From Verrucomicrobiota bacterium (lineage in GTDB: Bacteria > Verrucomicrobiota > Verrucomicrobiia > Opitutales > Opitutaceae), in contig CAUJJL010000045.1 of the NCBI GenBank assembly GCA_963205455.1, positions 1-64,000 on the forward strand: a stretch of DNA of 64,000 nt, written 5' to 3'. Shown here one piece after another: positions 17,476-36,789 of the stretch; the stretch's first letter is position 1, and each line of letters starts with the position of its first letter. The notes beneath the pieces are model-generated. The model was given only the letters and a program-made list of their open reading frames with translations, had not been told where the DNA came from and searched no databases. The position numbers and the translations under genes are program-made.

Positions 17476-18444
17476 ATGAATCGTCTCGCCATTCTCTTCC
17501 TCGCGACGTTCTGCACGATTGCCTCCTACGCGGCAGATGTCGCGTACAACGGGCCAAAGCGGCTCAACAAGGCCATCGAACTGCTCGAAGCCGGTCAGCC
17601 CGTATACTATGACTATGGTCGTGGCGGCTATACCGAGGGCAGGGCGGCCGCACAGACCTGGGCCGACCTGCTCATGTACGACATGGAGGGCGCGGCGCTC
17701 GATTTCACGCAGTTGCGCGAGTTCATGCGCGGTCTCGCCGACGGAGGTCCTACGAAATCCGGCCATCGAACGCCTGCAGTCATCGTCACGCTTCCGCTCT
17801 ACGGCCTCGATGCGTCCACGGTGAAGTCAAACCACTGGATGATCCAGCAGGCCCTTGCAGCCGGCGTCCATGGACTCCACATCTGTCACGCCCGCAACCC
17901 GGAGGCGGTGGCGATGTTCGTTCGCGCGGCCCGGTACGAAGTGAACCGCCAGGCCGTCGGCGCCGGACTCGAAGAGGGCCTTCGCATGTTCGGCGCGCAC
18001 GAATTCGCCTCGAAGATCTGGGGCATCAGCCCGCGCGAGTACTACAAGGTCGCCGACGTCTGGCCGCTCAATCCGAAGGGAGAAATCATGATCGGCGTGA
18101 AGATCGAGGACCGCACGGGCCTGCCACATGCGAAGGCGATCGCCCGCGTGCCAGGGTTGTCCTTCGCCGAATGGGGACCGCGCGACACGAGTTACGCGAA
18201 TGGCTATCTCGACGTGGCGTTCGACTACGGCCGCAAACCGGGCGTGGTACAGCCGCCCGAACTGCTGGCCGCCGCAAAGCGGGTGATCGCCGCTGCAAAG
18301 GCCGCACAGCTTCACATCCTCGACAACGCCCGGACCGAGGACATCGTCTCACAACTCGACGCCGGTATCGACATCATCGCCGGCGGTGCGAAGGAGGTTG
18401 CGGAGATCGGCCGCAGGCACACCGGCCGCACGATGCCCTGGTAA
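17476..18444 (+). CDS. HpcH/HpaI-family aldolase with signal peptide
   Basis: 322 residues from ATG 17476; the open frame reaches back to 17248 inside the preceding gene, but that part is a shadow. The start MNRLAILFLATFCTIASYAA is a Sec signal. The body matches the HpcH/HpaI (2-oxo acid, class II pyruvate) aldolase fold: KAIELLEAGQPVYYDYGRGG, LMYDMEGAALDF, GVHGLHICHARNPEAV, the metal Glu in MIGVKIEDRTGL and Asp in AEWGPRDTSYANG. Family members cleave 4-hydroxy-2-oxo acids to pyruvate and an aldehyde and are normally cytoplasmic, so the signal is unusual. Spacing is 25 bases from the beta-helix gene and 18 to the symporter. Confidence 0.85.
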   Translation: MNRLAILFLATFCTIASYAADVAYNGPKRLNKAIELLEAGQPVYYDYGRGGYTEGRAAAQTWADLLMYDMEGAALDFTQLREFMRGLADGGPTKSGHRTPAVIVTLPLYGLDASTVKSNHWMIQQALAAGVHGLHICHARNPEAVAMFVRAARYEVNRQAVGAGLEEGLRMFGAHEFASKIWGISPREYYKVADVWPLNPKGEIMIGVKIEDRTGLPHAKAIARVPGLSFAEWGPRDTSYANGYLDVAFDYGRKPGVVQPPELLAAAKRVIAAAKAAQLHILDNARTEDIVSQLDAGIDIIAGGAKEVAEIGRRHTGRTMPW

Positions 18445-18462
18445 GCCCTCAATCTCTCTACC

Positions 18463-20028
18463 GTGAGCCTCGCTCCCCTCGATCTCGCTGTCATCGCGCT
18501 GTACTTCGTCCTCATCGGCACGATTGGCTTCTACGTCTCCCGCGGCAGGAAGACCGCGGAGAAATTTTTTGTCGCCGGACGCAGCATCCCCATGTGGGCG
18601 GTCGCGTTTACGATCATGGCGACTATCATCGGCACCGGCACGATCGTCGGCCACCCGGGCACCGCTTACCAGATAGGGCTCGTGCTGCTGATTCCCCACA
18701 TGACCGTGCCCATCGTGCTCCTCGTGGTTGCGCGGATCGTGGTGCCCTTCTACCGCCGCGTCGTGCGCATGAGCGCCTATGAATACATTGGCGAACGCTT
18801 TGGACTCGGCGGCCGTTTCTACACCTCGTTCGGTTTCCTTGCCGACCGCATCTTCGATCTCGGCGTCACGCTGCTCACGACAGCGCTCGCCGTAAATGTG
18901 CTCACGGGATGGGACCTCCAATCCGTCATTCTCGGTGTCGGGCTCTTCACGATCTTCTACACGATGATCGGAGGTGTCGTGGCCGTGGTCTGGACCGACG
19001 TCGTTCAGGGCATCATCCTGATTGCCGGCGGCGTCTTCATTCTCTTCCGCATCCTTCTGGCCCCGGAGGCAGGAGCACCGTTTGCAGTCGTCGCAGAGAC
19101 CTACCGCCAGGGAAAACTCACCCTCGGCATCAGCGGTTTTTCCTGGGACGTGCTTTTTTCGACCCACAACAATACGATGTGGCTTTTTATCCTCGCCTAC
19201 GCGGTGCAATGGACACGGCGCTACTCGACCGATCAGCACATCGTTCAACGCTACCTTGTGGCAAAGGACGACCGCTCCGCCAGCCGAGCGGCGTTTGTCA
19301 GCGCTGTCATCTGCCTGCCCATCTTTGCCATGTTCATGTTCGCAGGCGCATGTCTCAACGGATTCTTCACCCTCGGCCACCTGCCTCCGCCGCCTATGCC
19401 CGACAGCGCGATGCCGTTTTTTCTGGCGAACTACATGCCCGTCGGCCTGCTCGGACTCGTGGTCGCCGCAGTTCTCGCCGCTGCCATGTCCACGGTCAGC
19501 GCTGACCTGAGCAGCGTGGCCACGGTGTTGACAACCGACTATTTCCTGTTCCTCAAACCCGGGGCTGCGGACAAGGCGCAGGTGCTCTGCGGGCGCATCA
19601 TGGTCGTGATCGGCGGCTCGCTGACAATCCTCGTCGCCTGGTTGCTGCTGCCGAAGGAGGGATCGGCGCCGTTGATGGAACGTGTGGTCACCATCGGCTC
19701 GATTCTCGCCGGTGGAACGCTGGGACTTTTCTGCCTGGGCTTCTTTACCCGCACGGCAACACGTCGCGGCTGCTACATCGGCGTGGCTGTGTGCCTGCTG
19801 TACACGATCTGGGCGATCCTCACCGAACCGGGCGGCCGCGTGATCGACGCGGGTCGCTTCAATTTTCCGCTGAATCCATTGCTCATAGGCGTCATCGGCC
19901 ACCTGATCCTTTTCGGAACAGGCTGGATAGCGAGCAGGCTGCTCGGCGGCTACGTCCCCGCCGACGTCGAACGCCTCACCTACTGGAGCATGCGCCCCGC
20001 GAAAGCCCCACCGGCCGTCGCAGCATGA
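18463..20028 (+). CDS. Sodium:solute symporter (SSS family)
   Basis: 521 residues with a GTG start at 18463; no ATG is available near the first membrane helix. About 13 hydrophobic segments. SSS features: YFVLIGTIGFYVSRGRKTAE (TM1 and the first loop with RGRKTAEKFFVAGR), the GTGTIVGHPGTAYQIG region, MSAYEYIGERFG, and MSTVSADLSSVATVL matching the family's Na-site Ser-rich helix. It probably imports a monosaccharide or acid sugar with sodium. It overlaps the following sulfatase by 4 bases (ATGA), so they are translationally coupled. Confidence 0.92.
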   Translation: MSLAPLDLAVIALYFVLIGTIGFYVSRGRKTAEKFFVAGRSIPMWAVAFTIMATIIGTGTIVGHPGTAYQIGLVLLIPHMTVPIVLLVVARIVVPFYRRVVRMSAYEYIGERFGLGGRFYTSFGFLADRIFDLGVTLLTTALAVNVLTGWDLQSVILGVGLFTIFYTMIGGVVAVVWTDVVQGIILIAGGVFILFRILLAPEAGAPFAVVAETYRQGKLTLGISGFSWDVLFSTHNNTMWLFILAYAVQWTRRYSTDQHIVQRYLVAKDDRSASRAAFVSAVICLPIFAMFMFAGACLNGFFTLGHLPPPPMPDSAMPFFLANYMPVGLLGLVVAAVLAAAMSTVSADLSSVATVLTTDYFLFLKPGAADKAQVLCGRIMVVIGGSLTILVAWLLLPKEGSAPLMERVVTIGSILAGGTLGLFCLGFFTRTATRRGCYIGVAVCLLYTIWAILTEPGGRVIDAGRFNFPLNPLLIGVIGHLILFGTGWIASRLLGGYVPADVERLTYWSMRPAKAPPAVAA

Positions 20029-21389
20029 ATTCACCTCTCAACATCCTGGTCGTCATAGCGGATGACATGGGCGTCCATCAGTTGGGCTGCTACGGCAGTT
20101 CCTTCTACGAAACTCCCCACCTTGACCTCCTCGCCGCCGGTGGCGCGCGTTTCGCCACCGCCTACAGCACGAGTCCCGTTTGCTCGCCGGCGCGCGCTTC
20201 ACTCTACACCGGCCTTCACCCGGCGCGCCTGCACCTCACGAATTACATCCCGGGCACGGAACCGGCCAATCCCCGGCTCATCACGCCCGCCTGGCGGCCC
20301 TATCTGCCCGTCGAGGTGCCCACGCTCGGCGATGTCTTCAAGAAGAACGGCTATGCCACAGGCCATTTCGGCAAATGGCATTTCGCGCACGACTACAACT
20401 ATCATCCCGGCAGACCGACCGACCCTGAATCGCAGGGATTCGACAGCGTGCTCGTCACGCGCAAACCCTCTTCGCGTGCCGATGCCGAGCACGACGCGCA
20501 CCACGTCGAGCGGTTGACCGACGCGGCGATCGATTTCATCGGCACGCCCCGGACGAAGCCGTTTCTGTGCATCGTTGCGCATAACACCCTCCATCGTCCG
20601 GAACTCGCCCCTGCCGACCTGATTGCACGCTATGCCTCAAAACCCGGCGCCGACCACGCCCACGAACGCCCCGTCGTTGCAGCCATGGTCGAGCAGCTCG
20701 ACCGCAGCATAGGACGCCTGCTCGCTGCGCTCAGAAGCCATGGACTCGAACGCAACACGCTCGTGGTCTTCACCTCCGACCACGGAGCTTTCGGACGCAG
20801 CCAAGACTGCAAGCCGCTCCGCGGAGCCAAGGCCGATCTCTATGAAGGCGGCGTGCGTGTCCCTCTCATCTACTCGCTGCCGCCCCGGATCGCGCCTCAG
20901 GTACGCAACGAACCAGTCGCAGGAACCGACTTTTTCTCCACCGCACTCGATTTGGCTGGACTCGCCGCACCCGAGAATGTCGACGGCCGCAGCGTCGCCC
21001 CGGCCCTGCTCGACCCAGCCGCCAAGCTCGCGCCTGCCGCGGAGTTGTGCTGGCACTTTCCCCACTACCACCACCTCGGACTCGCACCTTCCGGCGCCAT
21101 CCGCGTCGGTCGGTACAAACTCATCGAATGGTTCGATCGATCGATCGGCGGAGCGCAGGACGGTCCGGCTTTTGAACTTTACGATCTCGAGTCCGATCCA
21201 TCCGAGCAGCACAACCTTGCCGCACAGGAGCCCGCCAGGACCTCCGAACTTGCGGCACGCCTCCGAAACTGGCGACGCGAGGTCGGCGCGCAGGAGATGA
21301 CGCGAAACCCCGCCTTTGATCCCGCGCTTGGCGCTGACATGGCGCCTCCGCCGCCCGGCGATCCCGGCAATCCCTACTCCTCCCATTGA
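20025..21389 (+). CDS. Type I sulfatase without signal peptide
   Basis: 454 residues from ATG 20025, overlapping the symporter stop by ATGA. It starts MNSPLNILVVIADDMG with no leader, so it should act in the cytoplasm on a sulfated sugar brought in by the symporter. Formylglycine motif CSPAR (Cys53), GHFGKWHF, second metal site FTSDHGAFG, then RVGRYKLIEWFD and ELYDLESDPSEQHNLA. It is related to the secreted sulfatase at 10483 (shared LHLTNYIPG, DPESQGFD, HFPHYHHLG). No maturation enzyme is in the window. Confidence 0.92.
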   Translation: MNSPLNILVVIADDMGVHQLGCYGSSFYETPHLDLLAAGGARFATAYSTSPVCSPARASLYTGLHPARLHLTNYIPGTEPANPRLITPAWRPYLPVEVPTLGDVFKKNGYATGHFGKWHFAHDYNYHPGRPTDPESQGFDSVLVTRKPSSRADAEHDAHHVERLTDAAIDFIGTPRTKPFLCIVAHNTLHRPELAPADLIARYASKPGADHAHERPVVAAMVEQLDRSIGRLLAALRSHGLERNTLVVFTSDHGAFGRSQDCKPLRGAKADLYEGGVRVPLIYSLPPRIAPQVRNEPVAGTDFFSTALDLAGLAAPENVDGRSVAPALLDPAAKLAPAAELCWHFPHYHHLGLAPSGAIRVGRYKLIEWFDRSIGGAQDGPAFELYDLESDPSEQHNLAAQEPARTSELAARLRNWRREVGAQEMTRNPAFDPALGADMAPPPPGDPGNPYSSH

Positions 21390-22531
21390 ATACGGTCATT
21401 CTCCAACAACCCAAGCGCCTGCTGCTCGGCAGCGGTTGCATCCAGCAAAGTCCTGCCGAGTTCCAGCTTTCCGGCTGGAAACGGCTCTTTGTCGTTTCAA
21501 GTCCGCAGGTGGCAGCCGCACAGGACGGCCTCTTTGAGACCTGGAGGTCCGCCGGGCTTCACGTGGACCTTTTTGAAGGCATCGACCGCGAACCCGAGGT
21601 CGCGCTCTTTAACCAGGTGCTCACGGCCGCGCGTGACGCCCGGCCCGATGTCATCATCGGCCTCGGCGGCGGCAGTCCGATCGATGTGGCAAAACTCGTG
21701 GCTGCCATCCTCGACGGCGCACAGTCGATCCGCGAGATTTTCGGCATCGGCCTGCTCAAGCGGCGCGCCGCTCCACTGGTGTGCATCCCGACCACAGCCG
21801 GCACCGGCGCAGATGTTTCGCCCAATGCCATTCTCCTGGTCGAAGAGGAACGACTCAAGAAGGGCATCGTCAGCCCGCACCTTGTGGCGGACCTGGCCAT
21901 CTGCGACCCGGACCTGACGATGTCGATGCCGCCGGCCGTCACTGCCGCCACGGGCATCGACGCGCTCGTCCATTGCATGGAGGCGTACGCGAACAGGTTC
22001 GCCCATCCGGCAGTCGACGTCTATGCGCTCGAAGGCATCCGACGCATCGGTCGCAGCATCGAGACCGCCGTGCGAAACGGCTCCGATCGCAACGCACGCG
22101 CGGACGTCATGCTCGGCGCTCTCTATGGAGGACTTTGCCTCGGCCCGGTTAACACCGCCGCTGTGCACGCGCTCTCCTATCCCCTCGGTGGCGAGTACCG
22201 GATCGCCCACGGCGTGGCCAACTCGCTGCTCATGCCTCATGTCTTCCGATTCAACCTGCCCGCGATGCCGGAGCGCTACGCGGAAATCGCCCTTGCACTT
22301 GGATGCAGCGCCCACGGGTCTCCGGGTGCGACCGCTGAGGCGGGCCTGCAGCGCCTTGTGGCAATGTCGCTCGCCTGCGGCATTCCCCAGCGCCTCCGCG
22401 ACGTCGGCATTCCGGAGACAGACCTGCCGCGCCTCGCGCAGGAGGCGATGAAAGTCACACGCCTTCTGAAAAACAATCCACGAGAACTCACCCCTTCCGA
22501 CGCCGAACAGATCTACCGCGCCGCGTACTGA
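21386..22531 (+). CDS. Iron-containing alcohol dehydrogenase
   Basis: 381 residues with a TTG start at 21386 that overlaps the sulfatase stop (TTGA); no ATG lies near the conserved PKRLLLGSGC start. NAD(P) site GLGGGSPIDVAKLVAAI, then CIPTTAGTGADVSPNAIL, and metal ligands Asp and His in GIDALVHCMEAY plus His residues in AAVHALSYPLGG and RIAHGVANSLLMP. Group III (Fe) dehydrogenases oxidise alcohols or reduce aldehydes; in acid-sugar pathways they handle products such as lactaldehyde or glycolaldehyde, or hydroxy-acid substrates. The exact substrate here is unknown. It is cytoplasmic and is followed after 11 bases by the aldolase gene. Confidence 0.9.
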   Translation: MNTVILQQPKRLLLGSGCIQQSPAEFQLSGWKRLFVVSSPQVAAAQDGLFETWRSAGLHVDLFEGIDREPEVALFNQVLTAARDARPDVIIGLGGGSPIDVAKLVAAILDGAQSIREIFGIGLLKRRAAPLVCIPTTAGTGADVSPNAILLVEEERLKKGIVSPHLVADLAICDPDLTMSMPPAVTAATGIDALVHCMEAYANRFAHPAVDVYALEGIRRIGRSIETAVRNGSDRNARADVMLGALYGGLCLGPVNTAAVHALSYPLGGEYRIAHGVANSLLMPHVFRFNLPAMPERYAEIALALGCSAHGSPGATAEAGLQRLVAMSLACGIPQRLRDVGIPETDLPRLAQEAMKVTRLLKNNPRELTPSDAEQIYRAAY

Positions 22532-22542: not shown

Positions 22543-23481
22543 ATGACGAAGAAACTGACAACCCACGGACTGTCCCGCGCCCAACTTCGAGGCCACGTCA
22601 TCGTGCCGCTGCTCACCCCCTTCACCCGGGCGGGCGAAATCGACGAACCTGCGGTTGCGCGCATGCTCAACCACGTCATGGCAGGCGGCTGCCAGGGCAT
22701 CATGGTCGCAGGAACCACCGGCGAATTTGCATCGATGCCCATTCGGATGCGATTGCGCCTGATGGAACTCGCAGTCCGCGCCGCAAGCGGGCGCATGTTG
22801 ATCTTCGGTGGCATCGGCGACACAAGCCCGGCACATTCGATCGAACTGGGCCGCGAGTTCGTTCGCCTCGGCGCGCATGCCGTTGTAGGCAACCTGCCGT
22901 CGTACTATCCACTCACCCCGGAGATGATGGAGCGCTACTTCGTGCATGTCGCCGAAGCTGTTGGAGCACCGATGTACCTCTACAACATCCCACAGACCAC
23001 CAAACAAACCATCCCTCTTGAGGTGGTCGAACGCCTCTCACACCACCCTCTCGTCGCGGGCATCAAGGATTCCGAACCCGACGCCACACGTCAGGAAACT
23101 CTCGCGCGCCAGTACGGCGGACGCCCGGATTTCGCGGTGTTCTGTGGATCGATCGCCTTCACGAGCAAGTCCGTGCGCGCCGGTGCAGACGGCTGTGTTC
23201 CAGGCGCGGGCAACTTTGCGCCCTCCGACCTTCGCAATCTGATGATCCAGCTCTTCTCAGGCGACACCGCCCGAGGCGATGCCGCCCAGCAACGCGTCGA
23301 TTCCATCAACGCCACCTACCAGAAGGGCCGAACGCTCTCACAGGTTTTCATCGCCCTGAAGGCAATCATGGAAATTTACGGCCTCTGCTCGCGCGAGGTG
23401 CTCTCCCCCCTGATTCCCGCCAGCGACGCCGAGGTTTCCCAGATCCGTCTGGCCCTGCGCGATGCAGGGCTCATCCCGTGA
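22543..23481 (+). CDS. DapA/NanA-family (dihydrodipicolinate synthase-like) Schiff-base aldolase
   Basis: 312 residues, ATG 22543. TIM-barrel signatures: VIVPLLTPFTRAGEID, the pyruvate-binding GTTGEF, the catalytic Tyr in YLYNIPQTT and the Schiff-base Lys in VAGIKDSE. This family holds lyases and dehydratases for 2-keto-3-deoxy sugar acids and N-acetylneuraminate besides true DapA. The operon context (sulfatase, Fe-dehydrogenase, PdxA2-like, acid-sugar kinase) favours sugar-acid catabolism over lysine biosynthesis. It overlaps the next gene by 4 bases (GTGA). Confidence 0.9.
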   Translation: MTKKLTTHGLSRAQLRGHVIVPLLTPFTRAGEIDEPAVARMLNHVMAGGCQGIMVAGTTGEFASMPIRMRLRLMELAVRAASGRMLIFGGIGDTSPAHSIELGREFVRLGAHAVVGNLPSYYPLTPEMMERYFVHVAEAVGAPMYLYNIPQTTKQTIPLEVVERLSHHPLVAGIKDSEPDATRQETLARQYGGRPDFAVFCGSIAFTSKSVRAGADGCVPGAGNFAPSDLRNLMIQLFSGDTARGDAAQQRVDSINATYQKGRTLSQVFIALKAIMEIYGLCSREVLSPLIPASDAEVSQIRLALRDAGLIP

Positions 23482-24518
23482 ACACCATCCCCAAACCCAT
23501 TCTCGCCGTCACCCTAGGCGACCCCGCAGGCACCGGACCGGAGCTTCTGACAAAGGTCTTCTTGCTGCCCGAGGTCCGTAACGTCTGCCGGCCAGTGGTC
23601 ATCGGCGATGCCTCGGTGGTTTGCGCGGCGATCGCCATTACCCAGGCACCCGCGCAGGTTCGCGTGATCGCAAGTCCCTCCGACGCCACAGATTCCCCCT
23701 CCTTGATCGAGGTCGTCGATCTCGCAAACCTCGACGCCGCGAAACTGGTCCGCGGCAGGATCAATCCCGCGTGCGGCCAGGCAGCTTTCGAGTACATCAA
23801 GCGTGCGGTGGAACTCACGCTTGCGGAAAAGGCTCATGCCGTTGTCACGTCCGCGATCAACAAGGCGGCGCTGCATGCCGCGGGACATCACTACGACGGA
23901 CATACCGAATTGCTCTCCGAACTCTGCGGCCAGCCGAAAGTCACGATGATGCTCGTGGCCGACAATTTGCGCATCTGCCATGTCAGCACTCACGTCTCGC
24001 TACGCGAGGCAATCGAGCGCGCACGACCCGAACGCATCCTCTCCGTGATCGAGATCGCGCGAACTGGTGTGCAGGAACTCGGCATCGCCAATCCCCACAT
24101 CGCCGTCGCCGGCCTCAATCCGCATGCGGGTGAAGGCGGCCTCTTTGGCGACGAGGAAATCAAGTACATCTCGCCTGCCATCGAACAGGCGCGCGCACGC
24201 GGATGGAACGTCAGCGGGCCCTATGCAGGCGACACGGTTTTTTTCCGCACCCTGCAGGGTCAATTCGATTGCGCCATTGCGATGTACCACGACCAGGGCC
24301 ACGTCGCGGCCAAGATGCTCGGCATCTGGCGTGGGGTCAATGTGACCCTCGGGCTGCCCATCATCCGCACCTCCGTCGAGCATGGCACCGACTTCGACAA
24401 CGCTGGCACCGGCCGAGGTGACGCCCGGTCGCTCGTCCAGGCCCTCCTGCTCGCCGCAACCGTCGCCTCCAACCGTCTGCGCGCCACCGGATCCGCCGTC
24501 AAAAAAGTTGCCTCCTGA
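23478..24518 (+). CDS. PdxA2-like 4-phospho-aldonate dehydrogenase
   Basis: 346 residues with a GTG start at 23478 overlapping the previous stop. PdxA family: AVTLGDPAGTGPEL, metal His residues in HYDGHTELLSELCG, GLNPHAGEGGLFGDEE and MYHDQGHVAAKML. True PdxA acts in pyridoxal phosphate synthesis, but PdxA2 homologues oxidise and decarboxylate 4-phospho-D-threonate or -erythronate made by DUF1537 kinases. A DUF1537 gene lies two genes downstream in the same operon (29414), which strongly favours the PdxA2 role. It overlaps the next start by one base (TGATG). Confidence 0.88.
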   Translation: MNTIPKPILAVTLGDPAGTGPELLTKVFLLPEVRNVCRPVVIGDASVVCAAIAITQAPAQVRVIASPSDATDSPSLIEVVDLANLDAAKLVRGRINPACGQAAFEYIKRAVELTLAEKAHAVVTSAINKAALHAAGHHYDGHTELLSELCGQPKVTMMLVADNLRICHVSTHVSLREAIERARPERILSVIEIARTGVQELGIANPHIAVAGLNPHAGEGGLFGDEEIKYISPAIEQARARGWNVSGPYAGDTVFFRTLQGQFDCAIAMYHDQGHVAAKMLGIWRGVNVTLGLPIIRTSVEHGTDFDNAGTGRGDARSLVQALLLAATVASNRLRATGSAVKKVAS

Positions 24519-26992
24519 TGACGCCGGCTGCCCCAGCCCCGCTCTCCATTTTCCGCTGCGTTCGCTCCCTCATCGCAGCCGTGCTGCTCCTTGCGGTCGC
24601 CGCCCGCGGAGAGACCATAGCACTCTGGCTTTTCGACGAACAGGTGGGCGTTTATCCAAGCTCAATACTGAACGACGCTGGACCAAACGCCTATTTCCTC
24701 GTGCTCGGGCGCGGAGGCGAAATCACGAAGGGCAGATTCGGCAACGCCCTCCACCCGATCACACCGGGACCGTTCTCGCCGGTGTTCAAAGCCGGGCTTT
24801 CCAGCGCGGTCCGCGACGGCCTCGAAGCTCCTCCGAAAGCCGAAGGCCGCACAGTCGAGCCACTGAGTTGGCGGACTGCGACGTTTGCCGCCGGCTTCCT
24901 GAATGGCGACAAGCACCTGCGTCGCCAGGCATTCCCCTCACCCACGGATTCGCCTCTCAATATCGGCGCGACGGACTTCACGATCGAATTCTGGCTCAAG
25001 GCCGACACCACCGCATCCGGCGATGGTGTTGTTTTCGAACTCGGCTCAGGTCCGCGCGGTGAGAACGACGTCGTCACACGCCTCTCATTCTCTCCCGCCA
25101 AAGCCGCCTTCGAGTTTTCCAACCAGCCATCACGAACACACGTCACGCTTGCCAGCGATGCTGCCGCTCTGCGTTCAGGCACGTGGGTCCACTGCGCGGT
25201 GGTCTATGATTCCAGGAAGGGACTGCTTCGCCATTTCGCCAACGGCAGATCGCAGTCCGTGACCGCAGTGAGGCTCAAGGCGCTGCCCAAGGGCGACGAG
25301 GACTACTGGTCGATCGCCCGCGATGGCACCTGGCAGCAGCCGTTGCCGGGAGCAATCGATGAATTGCGACTGAGCGATCACCAGGCGTACGTCGCGGACT
25401 TCAAGCCGCCCGCAAGTTTTTCTCGCCTCCTGAATGGCGAACGTCAGGCGCATCCTCTGCTCGCAGGTCCGCCCCTGCTCTTTCCCGGCAACCACTCCCG
25501 GGCAGCCGTCATCGATCTCGGTTCGCGCCGCCATCTGTTTCTCGACGATGTGCTCCTCTCGGAAAGTCGCAATGTGACCTTTACTCCTCACCCAGCCCGC
25601 ATCGCCGAGCGAGTGCTCGAGGCATCCGGCTGGATCTCCGTGGTCGACGCGGGACCCGAGGACATCCGACTCTACGTGAACGGGCCGAGGGATTCCGTCG
25701 CGGTATTCACTTCGAAGGATGGAGTGAAATTCGTCGCACCGGATCTCGGACGCGAATTCGGCGGGAAGAGGAACATCGCGATCAAGGATCCCGCGACGGT
25801 CGGAAATGTGTTTATCGATCCCAACGGCCATGGCGATGAACGATGGAAACTCGTGAGCGGCCTCCGCCAGCGCGGCGGCATTTTCACCTACTCCTCCGCC
25901 GACGGATACACCTGGCTCCGCAACAATGCCGCCTCACTCCCGTTCTGGGCGGGCTCCGCGGAGAATGTCTTCTACGACGACCAGCGCCAGTGCTATGTCC
26001 TCCATCATCGCACCGATTACTACAGCCTGGCGAACGGCAGCACGGATCGGAAAATGCTGCTGATGGAGGCAACGGACCTGCTTCAACCCTGGCCCTTCCA
26101 ACCCGTCACACCCGCCGACACCCGGGCCGCACTGGAGAAAGGCATTCGTATCCAGGCGAAGGAACTCGATCCCTGGTGGCTCGACAACGGCCCGCTCGCT
26201 CCCGGCGGTTTCGGCCTCGAATATCCAATCGCTTTCGAGGCAGACCCCCGGCTCGATCCCGAGGGCACCGATGTCTACAACACCCGCGCACAGAAATATG
26301 CATGGGCCGAGGACGCCTACGTCGCGTTCCCATTGCTCTTCTTCCACTACCACACCGACGGTCCGCCGCAGCGACGCATCCTCGCGCGCGCGGATGAACA
26401 ACGCGGAACCGGACTGGTGGAGACACAACTCGCCGTCAGCCGCGACGGCCTGAATTGGAAGCGTTACCCGCGCCCGGCCTACGTCGGTGTGGGGGAAGTC
26501 GACGGATACGTGATGCGCCGTCCCTACACGGGCTACGGCATGGTCCGACGCGGTCGCGAAATCTGGCAGTATGCCTATACCCGATCGACTTACCACGATC
26601 CCTACCAAAGGGCCGCACAGCCGGATGTGATTCACCGGCTCGTGCAGCGCACCGATGGCTTCGTGTCGCTTGATGGCGCGTATACCGGTGGAGAGTTTGT
26701 CACCAAACCGTTCCGCTTCACCGGCAACCGCCTCGTGCTGAACGTGGACACAGAAGCCACCGGTTACCTCCAGCTTGGATTTGTCGACGAAAGGAACCAG
26801 CCGATTCCTGGGTTCAGCGTCGACGAAGGCATCTACGTCAACGGCGATGAAATCGACTATGAAGTCGAATGGCTGGCCAGGGACTTGAGACATCGCACAA
26901 AGGATCTCTCCGCACTTTCCGGGCAAACCGTGCGCCTCGTGGGGCGCATTCGTGGTGCATCACTTTATGCACTGCAGTTTGTCCGACGCTGA
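24518..26992 (+). CDS. Exported LamG + five-bladed-propeller-like protein (copy A)
   Basis: 824 residues from ATG 24518. Sec signal SLIAAVLLLAVAARG, then ETIALWLFDEQVGVYPS. Residues about 130-300 form a LamG/concanavalin-like domain (FTIEFWLKAD, WVHCAVVYDS, LPKGDEDYWSIARDG, GAIDELRLSD). After RRHLFLDDVLL comes a propeller-like part resembling GH32/GH43-type folds (FTSKDGVKF, ERWKLVSGLRQRG, VFYDDQRQCYVLHHRTDYY, ETQLAVSRDGLNWKRYPRPA, GMVRRGREIWQYAY), ending in a small beta domain (GYLQLGFVDERNQPIPGF). It has a tandem paralogue immediately downstream. No GH family can be assigned from sequence alone; a glycan-active or glycan-binding role is likely. Confidence 0.75.
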   Translation: MTPAAPAPLSIFRCVRSLIAAVLLLAVAARGETIALWLFDEQVGVYPSSILNDAGPNAYFLVLGRGGEITKGRFGNALHPITPGPFSPVFKAGLSSAVRDGLEAPPKAEGRTVEPLSWRTATFAAGFLNGDKHLRRQAFPSPTDSPLNIGATDFTIEFWLKADTTASGDGVVFELGSGPRGENDVVTRLSFSPAKAAFEFSNQPSRTHVTLASDAAALRSGTWVHCAVVYDSRKGLLRHFANGRSQSVTAVRLKALPKGDEDYWSIARDGTWQQPLPGAIDELRLSDHQAYVADFKPPASFSRLLNGERQAHPLLAGPPLLFPGNHSRAAVIDLGSRRHLFLDDVLLSESRNVTFTPHPARIAERVLEASGWISVVDAGPEDIRLYVNGPRDSVAVFTSKDGVKFVAPDLGREFGGKRNIAIKDPATVGNVFIDPNGHGDERWKLVSGLRQRGGIFTYSSADGYTWLRNNAASLPFWAGSAENVFYDDQRQCYVLHHRTDYYSLANGSTDRKMLLMEATDLLQPWPFQPVTPADTRAALEKGIRIQAKELDPWWLDNGPLAPGGFGLEYPIAFEADPRLDPEGTDVYNTRAQKYAWAEDAYVAFPLLFFHYHTDGPPQRRILARADEQRGTGLVETQLAVSRDGLNWKRYPRPAYVGVGEVDGYVMRRPYTGYGMVRRGREIWQYAYTRSTYHDPYQRAAQPDVIHRLVQRTDGFVSLDGAYTGGEFVTKPFRFTGNRLVLNVDTEATGYLQLGFVDERNQPIPGFSVDEGIYVNGDEIDYEVEWLARDLRHRTKDLSALSGQTVRLVGRIRGASLYALQFVRR

Positions 26993-27005
26993 TCGGTTAA
27001 AATTC

Positions 27006-29417: not shown

Positions 29418-30601
29418 GCGACTTCCTCCTCGCCGATGATCTCAGCGGAGGCCTGGAAGTCGGAGCGTCGTTCAGGCGACACGGGCATCCAGTCGTCGTT
29501 CCTCTCAGATCGGCCCAACTATCGCCTCAAGGCCTGACCGTGCTCACAACGGAAACGCGCAATCTCCCATCGGAAACCGCCCGCGAGATCGTGACAAGCC
29601 TGCTGAAGGAGCAACTCTCGACCGGCGGACGTCTGCTGCTGAAAAAAATTGATTCGACGCTGCGCGGTCCACTCGGCGCCGAACTGCGCGCAGTCAACGA
29701 GACGCTGCGCCCGCCGCGCATGATCCTGTGCCCGGCAAATCCCGCCACGGGTCGCACCGTTCGAGATGGCATCCTTCTCGTCGATGGAGTTCCGCTAAGT
29801 GAAACGCCGTTTCGCGACGATCCCATCTGGCCCGCCCGCGACAGTCGCATCGCGCCGCTGCTGGACGACTCCGGACTTAAGTGCGACCACCTCTCGCTCG
29901 ACACGGTGCGCCGCGGTGGTGCCCAGCAGCAACTCGCACAGGATCCATCCCGATCTCGGATTGTTGTCTGTGATGCCGAAACGCCCGCCGATATCGACAA
30001 GATCGTCACGGCGACCCGCGCTGCCGAGCCGGACGCTGTCTTTGTCGGCGCCAATGGACTCGCAGTCAGCCTGGCTGCGATCTTGCCGACACCTCGTTCG
30101 ACGATAGCGCCATCCCCCATCCGCGTCGATACGCTGCTGATTGTGTGCGGGACCCGGCATCCGGCATCCCATCGCCAGATCGAGCGTCTCGCCGATGCAG
30201 GCCTTGCCACGGTCGTTACGGTCAGGTCCGGCAAATTCACGCCGACAGCTGCCGCAGCAGAAATCCGACAGGCTTTCATCCAGAAGCGCATTGTGGCGCT
30301 TCGTTTCGATCCCTCGGTACTCGAGCCGTCTCACACCCTTCAAGCCTTCATCGCCCAAAGCGTGGCGACATTTGCATCCTCACGTGTTCCCGGAGCCTAC
30401 TTTTTTACTGGCGGAGAAACCGCATGGAACGCCTGCAAGAGCCTCGGGGGAGGACAGCTTCTAATTCACGGGCCATGGGAGACTGCGGTCGTCGAGGCCG
30501 AACTCGACTGCCTCAACCATACTCTCGCCGTATTTACGAAGCCAGGCGGCTACGGAGATCCAGATCTTCTCGTGCGGTTCGTAATATCAATGATGAAATA
30601 G
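29414..30601 (+). CDS. Four-carbon acid sugar kinase family (DUF1537)
   Basis: 395 residues from ATG 29414 (an upstream shadow frame begins at 29309). Signatures: FLLADDLSGGLEVGASF at the N-terminus, LKKIDSTLRGPLGAEL, CPANPATGRTVRDGILLVDG, and the C-terminal ATP-binding part with CGTRHPASHRQI, FTGGETAWNA and FTKPGGYGDPDLL. The family phosphorylates threonate, erythronate or related four-carbon acids (DtnK, LtnK, OtnK types). It works with the PdxA2-like enzyme encoded upstream. It is the last gene of the ATGA-coupled run; a 223-base regulatory gap follows. Confidence 0.88.
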   Translation: MSDFLLADDLSGGLEVGASFRRHGHPVVVPLRSAQLSPQGLTVLTTETRNLPSETAREIVTSLLKEQLSTGGRLLLKKIDSTLRGPLGAELRAVNETLRPPRMILCPANPATGRTVRDGILLVDGVPLSETPFRDDPIWPARDSRIAPLLDDSGLKCDHLSLDTVRRGGAQQQLAQDPSRSRIVVCDAETPADIDKIVTATRAAEPDAVFVGANGLAVSLAAILPTPRSTIAPSPIRVDTLLIVCGTRHPASHRQIERLADAGLATVVTVRSGKFTPTAAAAEIRQAFIQKRIVALRFDPSVLEPSHTLQAFIAQSVATFASSRVPGAYFFTGGETAWNACKSLGGGQLLIHGPWETAVVEAELDCLNHTLAVFTKPGGYGDPDLLVRFVISMMK

Positions 30602-30824: not shown

Positions 30825-33680
30825 ATGAGATTCTATCTACTCCCGCTCCATCGCGGCCTTGGTGCCGCTTTGCTCATTGCTGCTGGCGCGCTCAGCGCGC
30901 GTGCCACCGAAATCGTCGGAGTCGTTTCCGATGCCAAATCGCAGACCCTCCTTCCTGGAGCATCCATCGTTATCGTGGAAAATGGTCGCACTGCCGTCGC
31001 CGATGAGCAGGGGCGTTTCCGTTTCGCGAACATTGAAGGCGGCAACTACACGCTGCGCACCTCCTTCCTGGGTTACGAGAGCACCTCGGAGGCGATCACC
31101 GTGCCTGGCTCGGGTGTGCTCAACATTCCGGTGAAGATGGGCGAACAAGTGCTGCAGCTCGAAAAGCTCGTCGTTGAAGGATATCGCGAAGGCCGCGCCA
31201 AGGCTCTCCAGCAAAAGCGTTCTTCCCAAAGCCTGGTCGACATTGTGTCCGCCGATTCGGTCGGAAACCTTCCCGATCGCAACGTCGCGGATGCGCTCTC
31301 CCGGTTGCCCGGCATCTCGATCGTCGCCGACAACGGCGAAGGCCGCTTCGTCACAATCCGCGGCGCGGAGGCCAATCTCAACGCAGTGACGCTCAACGGC
31401 GCCACGATCGCCGCCCCTGGCGTCGACGGCCGCTCGGGTCGCTCAATGCCGCTCGACGTCATCAGTTCCTCACAGATTTCCCAGATCGAGGTCGTGAAAA
31501 CGATCACGCCAGACATGGACGGAACCGGCATCGGCGGCGCGATCAACATCCGCAGCGCGAGCGCCTTCGACCGCCCTTCGCGCTTCCTGAGCGGATCACT
31601 CGCGATGGGTTACAGCGATTTGGCCAACGACAAGATCTACGAGGGCGACGTCACATACTCAGACCGCTTCGGTGCCAACAAGACCATCGGCGTGGCACTC
31701 GCCGGCAGCTTCTCGCGCCGCCCTTTCCGCACCGAAGCCATCCAATCCGATTGGAGGGTGGGAACGGTCAACAATGTCTCGGTCATTGCGCCCGACTCCA
31801 TCCAAATTCTCCCTGAGGACGCCGTGCGCAAACGCACCGGCCTCAATGCGAACTTCGAATATCGTCCTTCGACCAACCTTCAGCTCTACCTCCATACGAT
31901 CTTCAATGAGTTCGACGAGGAGAACTATCGTCAGGAAGTCTCCAACGGCCAGAACGGCAACCTCACGATCCTCAACGACCACAGCGTGGTCTGGGGCCGG
32001 GCCCGCTCGGAACGCCGCGCATTCTACAATCCGCGCAATCAGAAACTCTTCAACGTCACGGGTGGTGCTGTCATCCACAGCGGCAACCTCACCATCACCC
32101 CCGAACTCACCTACTCCTTCGCGCAGGAGGAGCAGAACTCCGGCTTCAACACCGGCCAGTTCCGCGGCGGCAATTCCTCTGCCGGCCCGATGACCCTCGA
32201 CTGGAGCGAATTCCGCATCGGTTTCTCCACGACCTCAACCGACTACGCGAACCCTGCCCAGTACCCGCTTCGTCGCTTCAACTTTGAAACCTCAACCGTG
32301 GAGGAGAACACCTATACGCCGAAGGTCGACTTCAAGTGGGACCTCGATCAATTCCTCGGAGGCACGGGATCCATCAAGGTCGGCGCCAAGGCCAACACGC
32401 GCAAGCGGTTCGTCCACGACAACTCCGCACGCTACGTCGCAGGCACCATCAATCCGACAATCGCAACCATCGGTGCCGCCAAATCTCCCGGGCAGACCGT
32501 GCTCGGAAAATACAACACGGTCTTTGACCTCGATTACTTCGTGATGAGGGACTGGGTAAGTGCGAATCTGGCCGGTCTCAACTACGACGCCGACGGCTCT
32601 GCCCAGAACAATTCAGAGGACACGTACGACCTGACAGAGGATATCTACGCCGGCTATGCAATGGGCACTGCAACCTGGGGAAAATTCACCCTTCTCGGCG
32701 GCGCGCGCTACGAATACACGGACGCAACGATCTCGGGCAAGGAATACCGGAGCTTCGGCGGCGCCTTCCAAGGGCTCTTCGATAACAAAGGGAGTTTCAA
32801 CTACGACAACCTCCTGCCGAATCTCCAAGGACGCTACGAGTTCGCGAAAAACCTCATAGCCCGTGCATCCTTCACCAGCACGGTGGGCCGCCCGCGCTAT
32901 GAGTACATGTCACCCAAATCGAGCCTCGTCTATCAGACCGATACCGTCTCTCCAACTCCCGGCTATCCAAACACCGGTGTCCTCACCATCGGCAACCCCG
33001 ATCTGCAGGCTTTCGAGTCGAATAATTTCGATGTCTCGCTCGACTACTACCTGGAATCTGGCGGCATCCTCTCCATTGCTGGCTTTTACAAGGACATCAA
33101 GAATCCGATCTACCGCTTCAGCGAAACCCAACGCAGTGTCACCTACAACGGCCTGAACTTCGAGCAGCTCGATTCGCAGATCTACCGGAATGCTGACAGC
33201 GGCAAGGTGAAGGGCATCGAGCTGAACGTGCAGCTTCCGCTCACGTTCCTCCCGGGTTTCCTCGACGGGCTAGGCATCGACGCAAACTACACCCTCGTCG
33301 ATTCCGAGGTCACTGTCCCAAACCGCACCGGTCTGCCGTTCTTCGAGCAGCCCGACAAGTCAGCAAACCTTGCCCTCTACTACCAGAAATACCGCTTCCA
33401 GGCGCGCGTTGCATGGAACTTCCAATCAGAAAGCCTTCGTGAAATCCGTCCGCTTTTCTCGATCAATGGCACAACCCAGCCAGGAGACTATTATCGCGCC
33501 GACCACTACTCCATCGACGCACAGGCAAGCTACAAACTGACCGAAGACTTCCGCCTGTTCGTCAATGGCCAGAACCTCACCAACCAGGCTCAGGACACCT
33601 ACACCGGCGCCAAGTATCGGCTGCGCTACTCGCGCGAGTTCGGCTACAACATCCGCGGAGGCATCCAGTTCATTTTCTAG
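30825..33680 (+). CDS. TonB-dependent receptor with carboxypeptidase-regulatory-like domain
   Basis: 951 residues, ATG 30825. Signal peptide LGAALLIAAGALSARA; then a carboxypeptidase-regulatory-like beta-sandwich (residues about 28-115: IVGVVSDAKSQTLLPGASI, FRFANIEGGNYTLRTSFLGY); plug domain with LQLEKLVVEGY, DALSRLPGISIVADNGEG, FVTIRGAEANLNAVTLNG and QIEVVKTITPDMDGTGIGGA; then the barrel, which closes with NIRGGIQFIF. This layout is typical of carbohydrate receptors of the SusC-like or oar-like type. No SusD-like partner is seen. It stands between the acid-sugar operon and three exported or cupin enzymes and probably delivers their substrate. Confidence 0.94.
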   Translation: MRFYLLPLHRGLGAALLIAAGALSARATEIVGVVSDAKSQTLLPGASIVIVENGRTAVADEQGRFRFANIEGGNYTLRTSFLGYESTSEAITVPGSGVLNIPVKMGEQVLQLEKLVVEGYREGRAKALQQKRSSQSLVDIVSADSVGNLPDRNVADALSRLPGISIVADNGEGRFVTIRGAEANLNAVTLNGATIAAPGVDGRSGRSMPLDVISSSQISQIEVVKTITPDMDGTGIGGAINIRSASAFDRPSRFLSGSLAMGYSDLANDKIYEGDVTYSDRFGANKTIGVALAGSFSRRPFRTEAIQSDWRVGTVNNVSVIAPDSIQILPEDAVRKRTGLNANFEYRPSTNLQLYLHTIFNEFDEENYRQEVSNGQNGNLTILNDHSVVWGRARSERRAFYNPRNQKLFNVTGGAVIHSGNLTITPELTYSFAQEEQNSGFNTGQFRGGNSSAGPMTLDWSEFRIGFSTTSTDYANPAQYPLRRFNFETSTVEENTYTPKVDFKWDLDQFLGGTGSIKVGAKANTRKRFVHDNSARYVAGTINPTIATIGAAKSPGQTVLGKYNTVFDLDYFVMRDWVSANLAGLNYDADGSAQNNSEDTYDLTEDIYAGYAMGTATWGKFTLLGGARYEYTDATISGKEYRSFGGAFQGLFDNKGSFNYDNLLPNLQGRYEFAKNLIARASFTSTVGRPRYEYMSPKSSLVYQTDTVSPTPGYPNTGVLTIGNPDLQAFESNNFDVSLDYYLESGGILSIAGFYKDIKNPIYRFSETQRSVTYNGLNFEQLDSQIYRNADSGKVKGIELNVQLPLTFLPGFLDGLGIDANYTLVDSEVTVPNRTGLPFFEQPDKSANLALYYQKYRFQARVAWNFQSESLREIRPLFSINGTTQPGDYYRADHYSIDAQASYKLTEDFRLFVNGQNLTNQAQDTYTGAKYRLRYSREFGYNIRGGIQFIF

Positions 33681-33741: not shown

Positions 33742-34602
33742 ATGCGCCGCCTCCTGCCCACGCTAACCGTGCTCTCTGTCGGCATTGCATTTTCCGCTAC
33801 CGCAGCGGAAAAATACTGTCGCTTCGCTGACCACGCAGGTGCCACCCATTATGCCCGCGTCGACGGCGACACGTTGCTGTCCCTCGACGCAGCCCCCTGG
33901 TCCGGAGGAAAAGAAACAGGCGTCCGCATTGCACTCGCCGACGCGAAACTCCTGCCGCCTTCCGAGCCGCGAAATATTCTCTGCCTCGCCAATTCCTACG
34001 CTGGCAAGGACCCGAACCCACCGGCATTCATACGGTGGTTTGCCAAATCGAACGGCGCCGCCGCCACGGACGGCGATCCGGTCGCAATCCCACCGATCGT
34101 CGACCAGTTGAAAACCGAGGCGGAGGTCGTCCTCATCGTCGGCCGCCGATTGCGCAACGCGACCGAGGACGAGGCCCGGGCGGCAATCTTCGGCTACGCG
34201 GTCGGCAATGAACTCTTCGGATTTCCCGAATCCTTCCAGCGCCTGCACGGCGACGCCCCCGGGCGCACAGAGGTCATGCTCGCTGCAGGGTTGAAGCTCG
34301 GCGACCACTTCGCCCCCTTCGGTCCCTTTATCGAACGGGGCAGCGAATGGAAGGATCGACGACGCGTCCTCAGCATCACGAACTCCTCGACCGGAAAATC
34401 CATCGAGCACGCATCGGATACAAAAGGCCTGCTTTACCCACCTGCAAAGATTCTCACCGAACTCTCCCGCGTACTCACCCTTGAACCCGGTGATATTGTT
34501 TTCACGGGCTCCGACCGTTCATTCATCGTCGACGCCGGCGACACCATCACCATCGAGATCGAAGGTCTCGGCAAGCTCACCAACCGCATCGTCAAGCCAT
34601 GA
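33742..34602 (+). CDS. Fumarylacetoacetate hydrolase (FAH) family protein with signal peptide
   Basis: 286 residues, ATG 33742. Sec signal RRLLPTLTVLSVGIAFSATAA. FAH fold: ILCLANSYAGKDPNPP, the metal ExE pair in KTEAEVVLIVGRR, and the C-terminal GDIVFTGSDRSFIVDAGDTI plus IEIEGLGKLTNRIV. The usual GYxxxNDxSxRD motif, whose Asp binds the metal, reads GYAVGNELFGFP here, so the ligand is Glu or has moved. The family hydrolyses or hydrates 2,4-dioxo and 2-keto-3-deoxy acids and is normally cytoplasmic. It lies 61 bases after the TonB receptor and 96 before the dehydratase. Confidence 0.82.
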   Translation: MRRLLPTLTVLSVGIAFSATAAEKYCRFADHAGATHYARVDGDTLLSLDAAPWSGGKETGVRIALADAKLLPPSEPRNILCLANSYAGKDPNPPAFIRWFAKSNGAAATDGDPVAIPPIVDQLKTEAEVVLIVGRRLRNATEDEARAAIFGYAVGNELFGFPESFQRLHGDAPGRTEVMLAAGLKLGDHFAPFGPFIERGSEWKDRRRVLSITNSSTGKSIEHASDTKGLLYPPAKILTELSRVLTLEPGDIVFTGSDRSFIVDAGDTITIEIEGLGKLTNRIVKP

Positions 34603-34698: not shown

Positions 34699-36006
34699 AT
34701 GCTTGATAGACGATCCTTTCTCACCGCAGGCCTCGCCGGTGCCGCATCGGCACTGACCCCGCACCTCCTCGCGCAGGCTCCTACACTCAGTGAAACCCAG
34801 GAGAAGGGAAACCTCTCAGCACTGCGCATCACGGGCCTGAAGACATTCCTGGTCGATGCCGGGAACGACGAGAACTTCGTCTTCGTCAAGATCCACACCG
34901 ATCAGGGCATCACAGGCCTCGGTGAAGGGACGCTTGCCACCAAATGCCGGACGGTCGCGACGGCAATCGAGGAGCACAAGCGCTTCCTCGTGGGAAAGAA
35001 TCCCGCGGAAATCGAACGACTCTGGCAGACAATGTTCCGCGGACCGCGCTATCGGGGCGGCCCGGTTCTGATGTCCGCCCTCAGTGCCGTGGAGATCGCA
35101 CTCTGGGACATCCTCGGCAAGGCGCTCGGCGTGCCGATCTACCAGCTCCTTGGCGGCAAGGCGCGCGACAAGGTTCGGCTCTATTGCCATGAGGGCTACC
35201 TCGAACGGATCAGCCATCGCAAACGCCGGCGCCCCAAGAACCGCGAAGAGGAAATCGCCCTCTGGAAGCAAAAACAGGCCGATGGCTGGACCTGCATCAA
35301 GGGGAGTTTCTTCCCCGCCGAAAAACGCGTCATCGATTTTCCCCGGGCTCTGCATGAAGGCATAGCGATGCTCACAGACATCCGCGCTGCGGTCGGTCCC
35401 GACTTTGACATCATAGCCGAACTGCACGCAAAGGCCCCGCCTTCCTGGGCATCCGAGTTCTGCCGACTGGCCGAGCCCCTGCGTCCGCTCTGGGTCGAGG
35501 AAGCCACTCAACTCGAAAACGAGGACCTTGGAGAACTTCGCCTCCTGCGCAACCGCACGCGAGTGCCGCTGGCGACAGGCGAACGGCTGACGAGCCGCTA
35601 CCATTTCGGCCCGCTTTGCGCTGAACACCTTGTCGATGTCATCATGCCGGATGTTGTCCACGTCGGCGGCATCCTGGAGATGAAAAAGATCGCCGCTCTC
35701 GCCGAGTGCTTCCGGGTCGATGTCTCACCCCATACACCGCAAAGCGAGGTCAGCAACATGGCGTCCCTCCACGTCTGCATGTGCACGCCGAACGCCACAC
35801 TTCTCGAACTGGGCAGCGGCCACGACCCATTCTGGAGCGACCTCTTCCGAGGTGGCGGCATTCGGATTGAGCGCGGTTATGCACTGCCACCCGAAAAGCC
35901 AGGCCTCGGTCTCGAACTCGACGAAGCCGTCGCAGCAAAATATCCCTACGAGGAAAAGAACTACGATATCCTGCGCACTCCTGACGGCGCCCCAGCCGAT
36001 CGCTGA
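34699..36006 (+). CDS. Enolase-superfamily dehydratase (MR/MLE, galactonate-dehydratase-like) with Tat signal
   Basis: 435 residues, ATG 34699. The start MLDRRSFLTAGLAGAASAL is a twin-arginine signal. The capping domain has FVFVKIHTDQGITGLGEG and SAVEIALWDILGKALGVP; the barrel shows KQADGWTCIKGSF, metal ligands in IIAELHAK, LWVEEAT and ATGERL, and a catalytic His in VDVSPHTPQSEV. The ligand set and SPHTP motif place it near the galactonate/gluconate dehydratase branch, which turns an aldonate into a 2-keto-3-deoxy acid. The first ligand motif is ELH instead of the more usual DxH. Export through Tat implies folding with the metal in the cytoplasm before transport. It lies 18 bases from the bicupin gene. 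Confidence 0.88.
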   Translation: MLDRRSFLTAGLAGAASALTPHLLAQAPTLSETQEKGNLSALRITGLKTFLVDAGNDENFVFVKIHTDQGITGLGEGTLATKCRTVATAIEEHKRFLVGKNPAEIERLWQTMFRGPRYRGGPVLMSALSAVEIALWDILGKALGVPIYQLLGGKARDKVRLYCHEGYLERISHRKRRRPKNREEEIALWKQKQADGWTCIKGSFFPAEKRVIDFPRALHEGIAMLTDIRAAVGPDFDIIAELHAKAPPSWASEFCRLAEPLRPLWVEEATQLENEDLGELRLLRNRTRVPLATGERLTSRYHFGPLCAEHLVDVIMPDVVHVGGILEMKKIAALAECFRVDVSPHTPQSEVSNMASLHVCMCTPNATLLELGSGHDPFWSDLFRGGGIRIERGYALPPEKPGLGLELDEAVAAKYPYEEKNYDILRTPDGAPADR

Positions 36007-36024
36007 TGCTCCCACGCTTCCTCC

Positions 36025-36789
36025 ATGATGCTTCGTAACGCCCATTCCGGACAGAAACTCGACGTCGCTGGTCTCAATGAGATCACGGTTCTCATCGACC
36101 GCTCCGAAACCGAACGCTCCGAGGTCGCGATCAACCGCTGGCATCCTGGTCTTGATGGCCCGCCACACCAGCATGAGCACAAGGAGCAGATTTTCCTCGT
36201 CCTCGCCGGTGAGGGCGACGTCATTGTCGGCGACCAGAAGTTTTCCGCCAGTGTGGGTTCGCTGTTCTATCTGCCCGCGGGCGTGGTTCATCAGACAATC
36301 AACCGCGGAGATTCTCCACTGGAATACTTTCTCTTCAACGCCTTCCTCGATGCCGAGAAGGAAGGGCATGCGTCCTTCGCAGAACACATCGCCAAGGTGA
36401 AGCACATCCGCCGTCGGCAGGCGGACACCCAGCGCGCAGAGTCCGGCGACAACGGATCGCTCTCAACCACCTCCTCGCGGATCGGCCTACAGGCCCAGGT
36501 TTCGTCCGAAAAAACTGGTCGCGCGGTTCTGCTGTCTCCGGCCGACACTGAATCCTGCAACGCCATCCTCATTGCGCTCCCCGACCACGGCACTGCCCAG
36601 ATCGCCGCAAGCACGCCTTGGGAGCAGACGCTCCACGTGCTCGCCGGTTCTGGCTCCGTCCGAATTGCTGACGAGACCGCCTCGTTTGGCATCGGACAGA
36701 CCCTTTTTATTCCACGCGGATGCACCGCGACACTGCGCGCCGGTCACGGCGGACTACGCGTCGTTTCCTTCGGCGCCGCGGTGAGGTGA
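36025..36789 (+). CDS. Bicupin protein
   Basis: 254 residues, ATG 36025 (a second ATG follows at 36028). The first cupin holds the metal-type motif HQHEHKEQIFLVLAGEGD and LPAGVVHQTINRGD. The second (about 165-254) has LHVLAGSGSVRIADETASFG and FIPRGCTATLRAGHGG and has lost most His ligands. Cupins near uronate and aldonate enzymes are often isomerases (KdgF-like) or sensors; nothing here decides which. It is cytoplasmic, unlike the two preceding exported enzymes. Its last 158 bases recur as a fragment at 37505-37663. Confidence 0.8.
   Translation: MMLRNAHSGQKLDVAGLNEITVLIDRSETERSEVAINRWHPGLDGPPHQHEHKEQIFLVLAGEGDVIVGDQKFSASVGSLFYLPAGVVHQTINRGDSPLEYFLFNAFLDAEKEGHASFAEHIAKVKHIRRRQADTQRAESGDNGSLSTTSSRIGLQAQVSSEKTGRAVLLSPADTESCNAILIALPDHGTAQIAASTPWEQTLHVLAGSGSVRIADETASFGIGQTLFIPRGCTATLRAGHGGLRVVSFGAAVR

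Follow-up and report, generated by a model that had tools for sequence, protein, structure and literature searches.

The window analyzed here is a stretch of 64,000 nucleotides, part of contig C45 in the draft genome (4.56 Mb) of a Verrucomicrobiota bacterium, and it harbors a gene island running from 14606 to 36789 on the forward strand. Within this island, three enzymes of acid-sugar catabolism carry export-type N-termini: an HpcH/HpaI-fold protein (HpcH) with a Sec-type leader at residues 1 to ~20 (17476..18444; Pfam HpcH_HpaI 2.2e-6, a weak match), an FAH-family protein with a Sec-type leader at residues 1 to ~22 (33742..34602; FAA_hydrolase 6.2e-33 and Rv2993c-like_N) and an enolase-superfamily (MR_MLE) acid-sugar dehydratase with the Tat leader RRSFL (34699..36006; MR_MLE_C 7.5e-52). 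The Pfam matches agree with the coordinates and families that a first-pass annotation had assigned to the three genes. Comparison with homologous loci points to HpcH and the dehydratase as a conserved exported pair, so that an unusual acidic sugar would probably be broken down in part outside the inner membrane.

At the head of the island a LacI-type regulator is encoded (14606..15769; NCBIfam LacI-family matches), whose homologues stand at the head of operons of the glycoside hydrolase family 143 (GH143) type. It is followed by an exported right-handed beta-helix protein (15804..17450; Pfam Beta_helix), the HpcH gene, an SSS sodium/solute symporter (18463..20028; TIGR00813, 205 bits, over the cut-off) that is also found in GH143-type operons, and a sulfatase (20025..21389; Pfam Sulfatase 1.3e-53). 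Next come an iron-containing dehydrogenase (FeADH; 21386..22531; Pfam Fe-ADH, linked to GH143-type genes), a DapA/NanA-type aldolase (22543..23481; family matches and membership in GH143-type clusters) and a PdxA-type protein (23478..24518; TIGR00557 over the cut-off, PRK03371 7.6e-95), for which we propose the roles of D-threuronate reductase, aldolase of 3-deoxy-D-lyxo-heptulosaric acid (Dha; PMC12168206) and D-threonate 4-phosphate dehydrogenase, respectively. Two exported proteins with LamG and beta-propeller-like parts, the probably glycan-active GHa (24518..26992) and a second one, GHb (26952..29417), both match Pfam Laminin_G_3 and are kept in islands. The structure model of GHa is of low confidence (pLDDT 62), and its Foldseek matches to sialidases (TM ~0.15) are not used as evidence. 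A DUF1537 kinase, with the D-threonate kinase DtnK as best match (29414..30601; Pfam SBD_N/NBD_C; NF047819 9.6e-49, under the cut-off), precedes a TonB-dependent receptor (30825..33680), assigned as an open reading frame (ORF) with homologous receptors in the G031, G028, G514 and L042 islands. Behind the receptor gene lie FAH and the dehydratase, ~15 kb away from HpcH, followed by a leaderless bicupin (36025..36789; Pfam Cupin_2) with a homologue in the L091 island.

Searches covered 177 genomes at the level of the order and 388 at the level of the phylum, and a collection scan with HpcH returned 579 relatives, the best 80 of these 579 loci being used. The nearest HpcH sequences are found in Verrucomicrobiota metagenome-assembled genomes (MAGs), some labeled Opitutae/Opitutaceae, at 97 percent (L041) and 72-81 percent (L042-L045); within the order, the search matched 10 of the 177 genomes. 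The set of LacI, beta-helix, HpcH, SSS, sulfatase, FeADH, DapA, PdxA, two LamG/propeller proteins, DUF1537 and TonB genes is found again in G031, G028, G007, G089, G111, G514, L042-L044 and others, in altered order and not always complete. Synteny of the island is present in G031, G028 and G514 as well as in Acidobacteria and Gammaproteobacteria loci. In the G514 locus (L158, 4112-14163), the cytoplasmic genes, HpcH and the beta-helix gene are broken by many frameshifts, due to assembly errors or decay, unlike MR_MLE, FAH and GHb, which are intact.

The N-terminus of HpcH (MNRLAILFLATFCTIASYAADVAYNGPKR; 12-residue hydropathy 2.56) contains the leader MNRLAILFLATFCTIASYAAD, that of FAH (MRRLLPTLTVLSVGIAFSATAAEKY; 12-residue hydropathy 2.02) the leader MRRLLPTLTVLSVGIAFSATAA, and the dehydratase starts with the Tat-type RRSFL leader MLDRRSFLTAGLAGAASALTPHLLAQA. 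These leaders were tested comparatively, using homologues and cytoplasmic controls. The hydropathy rule for leader calling misses Tat leaders (0/16), which were therefore judged by motif, and also the FAH leader of G514, where the net charge of the n-region is zero. A leader of their own is carried by 65 of 81 homologous HpcH domains, mostly Sec-like and in some cases Tat-like (e.g., L097); for L054 it appears only if a non-ATG start is used. In a further 8 (L060-L062, L064, L065, L070, L079, L080), from Acidobacteria and Gammaproteobacteria MAGs, the HpcH domain is fused C-terminally to an exported beta-helix protein, which joins the homologues of two adjacent window genes, and in the examples read (L061, L062, L079, L080) the leader is on the beta-helix part. 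These predicted fusions tie the HpcH domain physically to the exported beta-helix protein. Leaderless HpcH domains (8/81) all belong to Chloroflexi, Thermomicrobiales or Poribacteria, and in the leaderless relatives L016, L017 and L019 the initiator methionine is the start of the conserved core, which the window leader precedes.

Applied to the island homologues, the same hydropathy rule called leaders in 62 of 87 HpcH proteins vs. 0 of 21 FeADH, DapA, PdxA and DUF1537 proteins, in line with the earlier placement of these four enzymes inside the cell. For the dehydratase, an RR-x-phi motif stands before a mild hydrophobic stretch, is conserved in orthologues and meets a Tat system in the source genome, where TatC is encoded. 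A Tat-type leader with the RR motif is present in 29 of 32 non-redundant close homologues (at least 47 percent); the others are one broken ORF (L208) and two leaderless proteins. Since the leaders are conserved across phyla, a chance origin is excluded. Judged from this comparison, the export signals of HpcH and the dehydratase are real, conserved and coupled, and the export-type N-termini that the first-pass annotation had noticed on all three proteins are borne out.

Within the order, an exported HpcH is present in G031, G007, G111, G089, G028, G047 and G063, and a close dehydratase in G063, G089, G007, G031, G028, G047 and G021. The overlap is 6 of 7 each way (table 6/1/1/168; Fisher 1.3e-9, kinship ignored). 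G021, the sole order genome with the dehydratase and without exported HpcH, encodes a dehydratase without a Tat leader, and the gene shares its contig with GAPDH, PGK and TPI genes, outside any island. Furthermore, in the Chloroflexi genome G569 both the dehydratase and HpcH (L119) are leaderless; it is the only Chloroflexi genome with a close dehydratase among 47 HpcH-bearing genomes from the collection scan. The export state therefore follows the pair, even if the genes are unlinked. The predicted Sec-exported HpcH and Tat-exported dehydratase are thus a conserved, co-occurring pair whose leaders are gained and lost jointly. Neighbor clustering of the 80 HpcH loci revealed no fixed Bryobacterales partner apart from same-lineage genes. 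In two distant loci (L061 3202-5358, L091 14613-16313), PhoD-like phosphatases adjoin the exported HpcH.

In HpaI, a class II pyruvate aldolase, Arg70 binds the pyruvate carbonyl and His45 acts as the catalytic base. The model of the window HpcH (pLDDT 88) has the TIM-barrel HpcH/HpaI fold, and the top Foldseek matches are HpcH/HpaI aldolases; the model matches 4mf4 (4.4e-15), HpaI, GarL and macrophomate synthase. The metal ligands Glu211 and Asp237 (HpaI Glu149 and Asp175) are invariant in 93/93 sequences and His45 (HpaI numbering) is kept in 80/93. At the Arg70 position Thr, Val or Ser is found in 84/93, and the Gln147 position is Lys in 92/93, with Lys209, Trp182 and Trp196 being near-invariant. 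Compared with the HpaI/HpcH aldolases (PDB 2v5j, 4b5s) and Burkholderia 4mf4, the fold, the metal ligands and mostly His45 are shared, whereas the window protein is exported and its family differs in the Arg70 and Gln147 replacements as well as in an insert with GLxxGxRGxGS and WPLNPxGE motifs. The dehydratase contains both MR_MLE domains (N and C), three carboxylate ligands and the active-site His, and is best matched by galactonate and mannonate dehydratases, under the equivalog cut-offs. Galactonate dehydratase can be aligned with its residues 43-422 (4.5e-84), and as in the DgoD/ManD group (PDB 3rr1, 4il2) it keeps the ligands E241, E267 and E295 together with H243 and H345; unlike this group, it carries a Tat leader and has Glu for Asp as the first metal ligand.

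For the cytoplasmic half of the island, the relatives point to a substrate. A neighbor in L091 matches PF24067, the N-terminal propeller of BT_1020 (5.8e-96), and the equivalent protein of G031 matches BT_1020 residues 28-610 (1.1e-136). The N-terminal module of BT_1020 is reported to be the GH143 Dha hydrolase (Ndeh et al., 2017), and the BT_1020-like proteins here are presumably of this type. The GH142 active-site residue, BT_1020 Glu694 (PMC7263609), falls outside the matched stretch. A BT_1020-like protein is encoded in 7/7 HpcH-positive genomes of the order vs. 9/169 others (Fisher 1.2e-8). Searching with the window FeADH, a homologue was found ~3 kb from a BT_1020-like gene in G070, G114, G021, G164, G172, G102, G126 and G147, all without exported HpcH, and in these eight regions and in G139 the BT_1020-like gene stands amid subsets of LacI, SSS, FeADH, DapA, DUF1537 and PdxA. 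In L240, SSS, FeADH, DapA, DUF1537 and PdxA were all called near it; elsewhere, the simple gene caller hides some cluster genes. The compact LacI/SSS/FeADH/DapA/DUF1537/PdxA/BT_1020-like clusters of these nine same-order genomes (L235-L243) are by themselves a candidate Dha catabolic operon. The cytoplasmic genes are also linked to the BT_1020-like gene in G031 and G028. In the RG-II (rhamnogalacturonan II) utilization system of Bacteroides thetaiotaomicron, BT_1020 combines GH143 and GH142; the island-linked proteins of the relatives resemble its N-terminal module.

The stereochemistry of Dha fits to the enzymes. A retro-aldol cleavage splits Dha into pyruvate and a C4 aldehyde acid, which on reduction becomes D-threonate. 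DtnK is a characterized DUF1537 enzyme (PMC10971088), and D-threonate 4-phosphate dehydrogenase (PRK03371) is among the strong PdxA matches. Taken together, the clusters, the stereochemistry and these matches lead us to propose Dha as the cytoplasmic substrate, an assignment that we consider somewhat more probable than not. The cytoplasmic enzymes had been read before as the rest of an aldonate pathway; Dha and D-threonate catabolism fits them better. The D-threonate pathway of DtnK and PdxA2 (Zhang et al., 2016, cited in PMC10971088) likewise has a DUF1537 kinase near a PdxA-type gene, whereas here both are joined with a DapA aldolase, an iron dehydrogenase and an SSS symporter and, in relatives, with GH143-type proteins. 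Two distant genomes (L022 9858-12478, L079 1961-4479) have an aldehyde dehydrogenase, in L022 of the alpha-ketoglutaric semialdehyde type, paired with a leaderless MR_MLE protein next to the island, which might be an alternative exit for the aldehyde.

These results would fit to a two-compartment glycan-utilization island with an exported acid-sugar pair and a cytoplasmic Dha-type pathway, a reading that we hold to be evenly balanced. Outside the inner membrane, the Tat dehydratase would convert a released acid sugar into its 2-keto-3-deoxy form. The HpcH-fold metal enzyme, in which Lys replaces the Arg70/Gln147 pair of HpaI, would then act on this product or on a related 3-deoxy-ulosaric acid by metal-dependent cleavage or rearrangement near its beta-helix partner; for this outer branch, our confidence is somewhat below even. 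The SSS symporter would take up the product. Inside, the DapA-type aldolase would split a Dha-like C7 diacid into pyruvate and D-threuronate, the iron dehydrogenase would reduce the latter to D-threonate, and after phosphorylation by the DUF1537 kinase PdxA would form dihydroxyacetone phosphate (DHAP) and CO2. Since the GH143-linked module is also found without the exported pair, the pair is unnecessary for Dha use and therefore adds something; most likely, it converts another acid sugar or a relative of Dha ahead of uptake. The complete arrangement, a conserved periplasmic sugar-acid branch of a Tat dehydratase and an Arg-less, Lys-bearing HpcH that act ahead of uptake, joined to a not yet described cytoplasmic route from Dha via D-threonate to DHAP, is put forward tentatively.

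Several alternatives have to be considered. If the leaders only reflected a wrong choice of start codons, all three proteins would be cytoplasmic, and leaderless relatives do exist. Against this stand the position of the leaders ahead of the core, their co-variation between two often unlinked genes, the occasional replacement of the leader by fusion to an exported domain and the clean controls, which together make this explanation very improbable. The first-pass annotation had suggested that the dehydratase, FAH and HpcH catalyze three successive steps in the periplasm, within a non-phosphorylative aldonate pathway. All three leaders are indeed present in the source genome, in its 97 percent relative (L041/L189), where FAH also has a leader, and in the same-genus genome G514, in which the whole island recurs. 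Moreover, FAH adjoins the exported HpcH in L074 (Calditrichota, with a leader) and in the distant relative L091 (KSB1). In FAH, the FAA_hydrolase domain with its metal motif is present and the ExE motif and the Lys position are kept, as in HpaG/YcgM-type proteins (PDB 1gtt, 3rr6), from which it differs by the Sec leader, the third ligand being Glu instead of Asp, and scores far under the equivalog cut-offs. However, within the order FAH is found in the source genome only and among the 388 phylum genomes in just one further, G514; six other order genomes with HpcH and the dehydratase lack it, and the L091 copy is leaderless. Hydrolysis of a 2,4-diketo acid by an FAH-type enzyme would replace aldol cleavage rather than follow it, and an exported dehydrogenase able to make such a diketo acid was not found in the locus. 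FAH as a core member was therefore rejected; by its predicted distribution it is a lineage-level accessory of the exported set, and three consecutive steps appear improbable. Of the joint periplasmic pathway, the co-exported, conserved and linked HpcH and dehydratase are retained, whereas FAH as a third core step is not supported and plain pyruvate-aldolase chemistry is not assured.

This chemistry is also where the active sites weigh against the two-compartment model. Arg70 is missing in 92/93 sequences, Thr105 taking its place in the window protein and the outgroup L020 being the sole Arg, and His45 is Gly (Gly72) in the window clade (P0001, L041-L045) and in G514. Pyruvate-aldolase chemistry outside the membrane is therefore uncertain. 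With the site so altered, especially in the window clade, a non-aldolase role has to be taken seriously as an alternative, in which the HpcH-fold would be a glycan-binding or repurposed metal protein that acts on the polymer together with the beta-helix, the dehydratase being a separate activity. The near-invariant Lys and Trp residues and the eight fusions speak for it; the invariant metal ligands, the widely kept His45, the closest fold being that of HpaI-type aldolases and the co-occurrence with a catalytic-looking dehydratase speak against it, and overall we consider it unlikely. Further points against the model are the exported HpcH and dehydratase genes of Acidobacteria, which are mostly unlinked and outside such islands, and the missed equivalog cut-offs of D-galactonate dehydratase (NCBIfam, 282.7 vs. 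311 bits) and DtnK (166 vs. 450 bits). In addition, the module occurs without the pair, a BT_1020-like gene is absent from the window and lies on another contig of the source genome, unlinked to the cytoplasmic genes, and the PDB entry title reads beta-L-arabinobiosidase. The module might degrade another 3-deoxy-ulosonic or uronic acid, with the BT_1020-like link reflecting a different specificity within the family, as the diversity of these proteins (28/177 genomes) and the broad DapA matches would allow. A C4-acid kinase and dehydrogenase, however, need a four-carbon acid, and Dha, a natural 3-deoxy-ulosonate, gives D-threonate by such a route, which leaves this alternative doubtful, if somewhat less so than the non-aldolase role.

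The sulfatases next to the exported enzymes had been regarded as secreted. The one within the operon is leaderless, as are 7/7 adjacent orthologues, and is therefore predicted to be cytoplasmic; its secretion was rejected, and it may point to import of a sulfated small molecule. Elsewhere in the window, a second sulfatase (9010-10359, forward strand; start MVASPSRPPPNIVVLIADD) is leaderless, and those at 10483-11892 and 55858-62013 are exported. A single protein on the reverse strand (11898-14417) combines a formylglycine-generating-like FGE-sulfatase domain, a BNR_2 propeller and MORN repeats; in L041 and L044 its homologues stand at the edge of the island, and others are present in G007 and G047. 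An 803-residue protein (39129-41540, forward strand) has no Pfam match. A separate cluster (45067-53979) encodes two FAD_oxidored proteins, a SIS-domain protein, a ROK kinase, Meth_synt_2, a phosphotriesterase-family protein and an SSF transporter; exported sulfatases come after it.

The accepted location of sugar-acid dehydratases and class II aldolases is the cytoplasm. The component families of the island are known; what differs is their location, their coupling and the altered active site. In the open-access literature searched (subscription literature being outside the scope), no description was found of an exported HpcH or MR_MLE enzyme, of the two as an exported pair, or of a pathway for Dha catabolism. 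If true, such a pair, widespread and exported in a coordinated way in Acidobacteriota, Verrucomicrobiota and other groups, would extend extracytoplasmic glycan breakdown by a chemical step, and many automatic annotations would have to be corrected. Furthermore, for Dha, which occurs in plant rhamnogalacturonan II, the linked genes offer a concrete route that can be tested.

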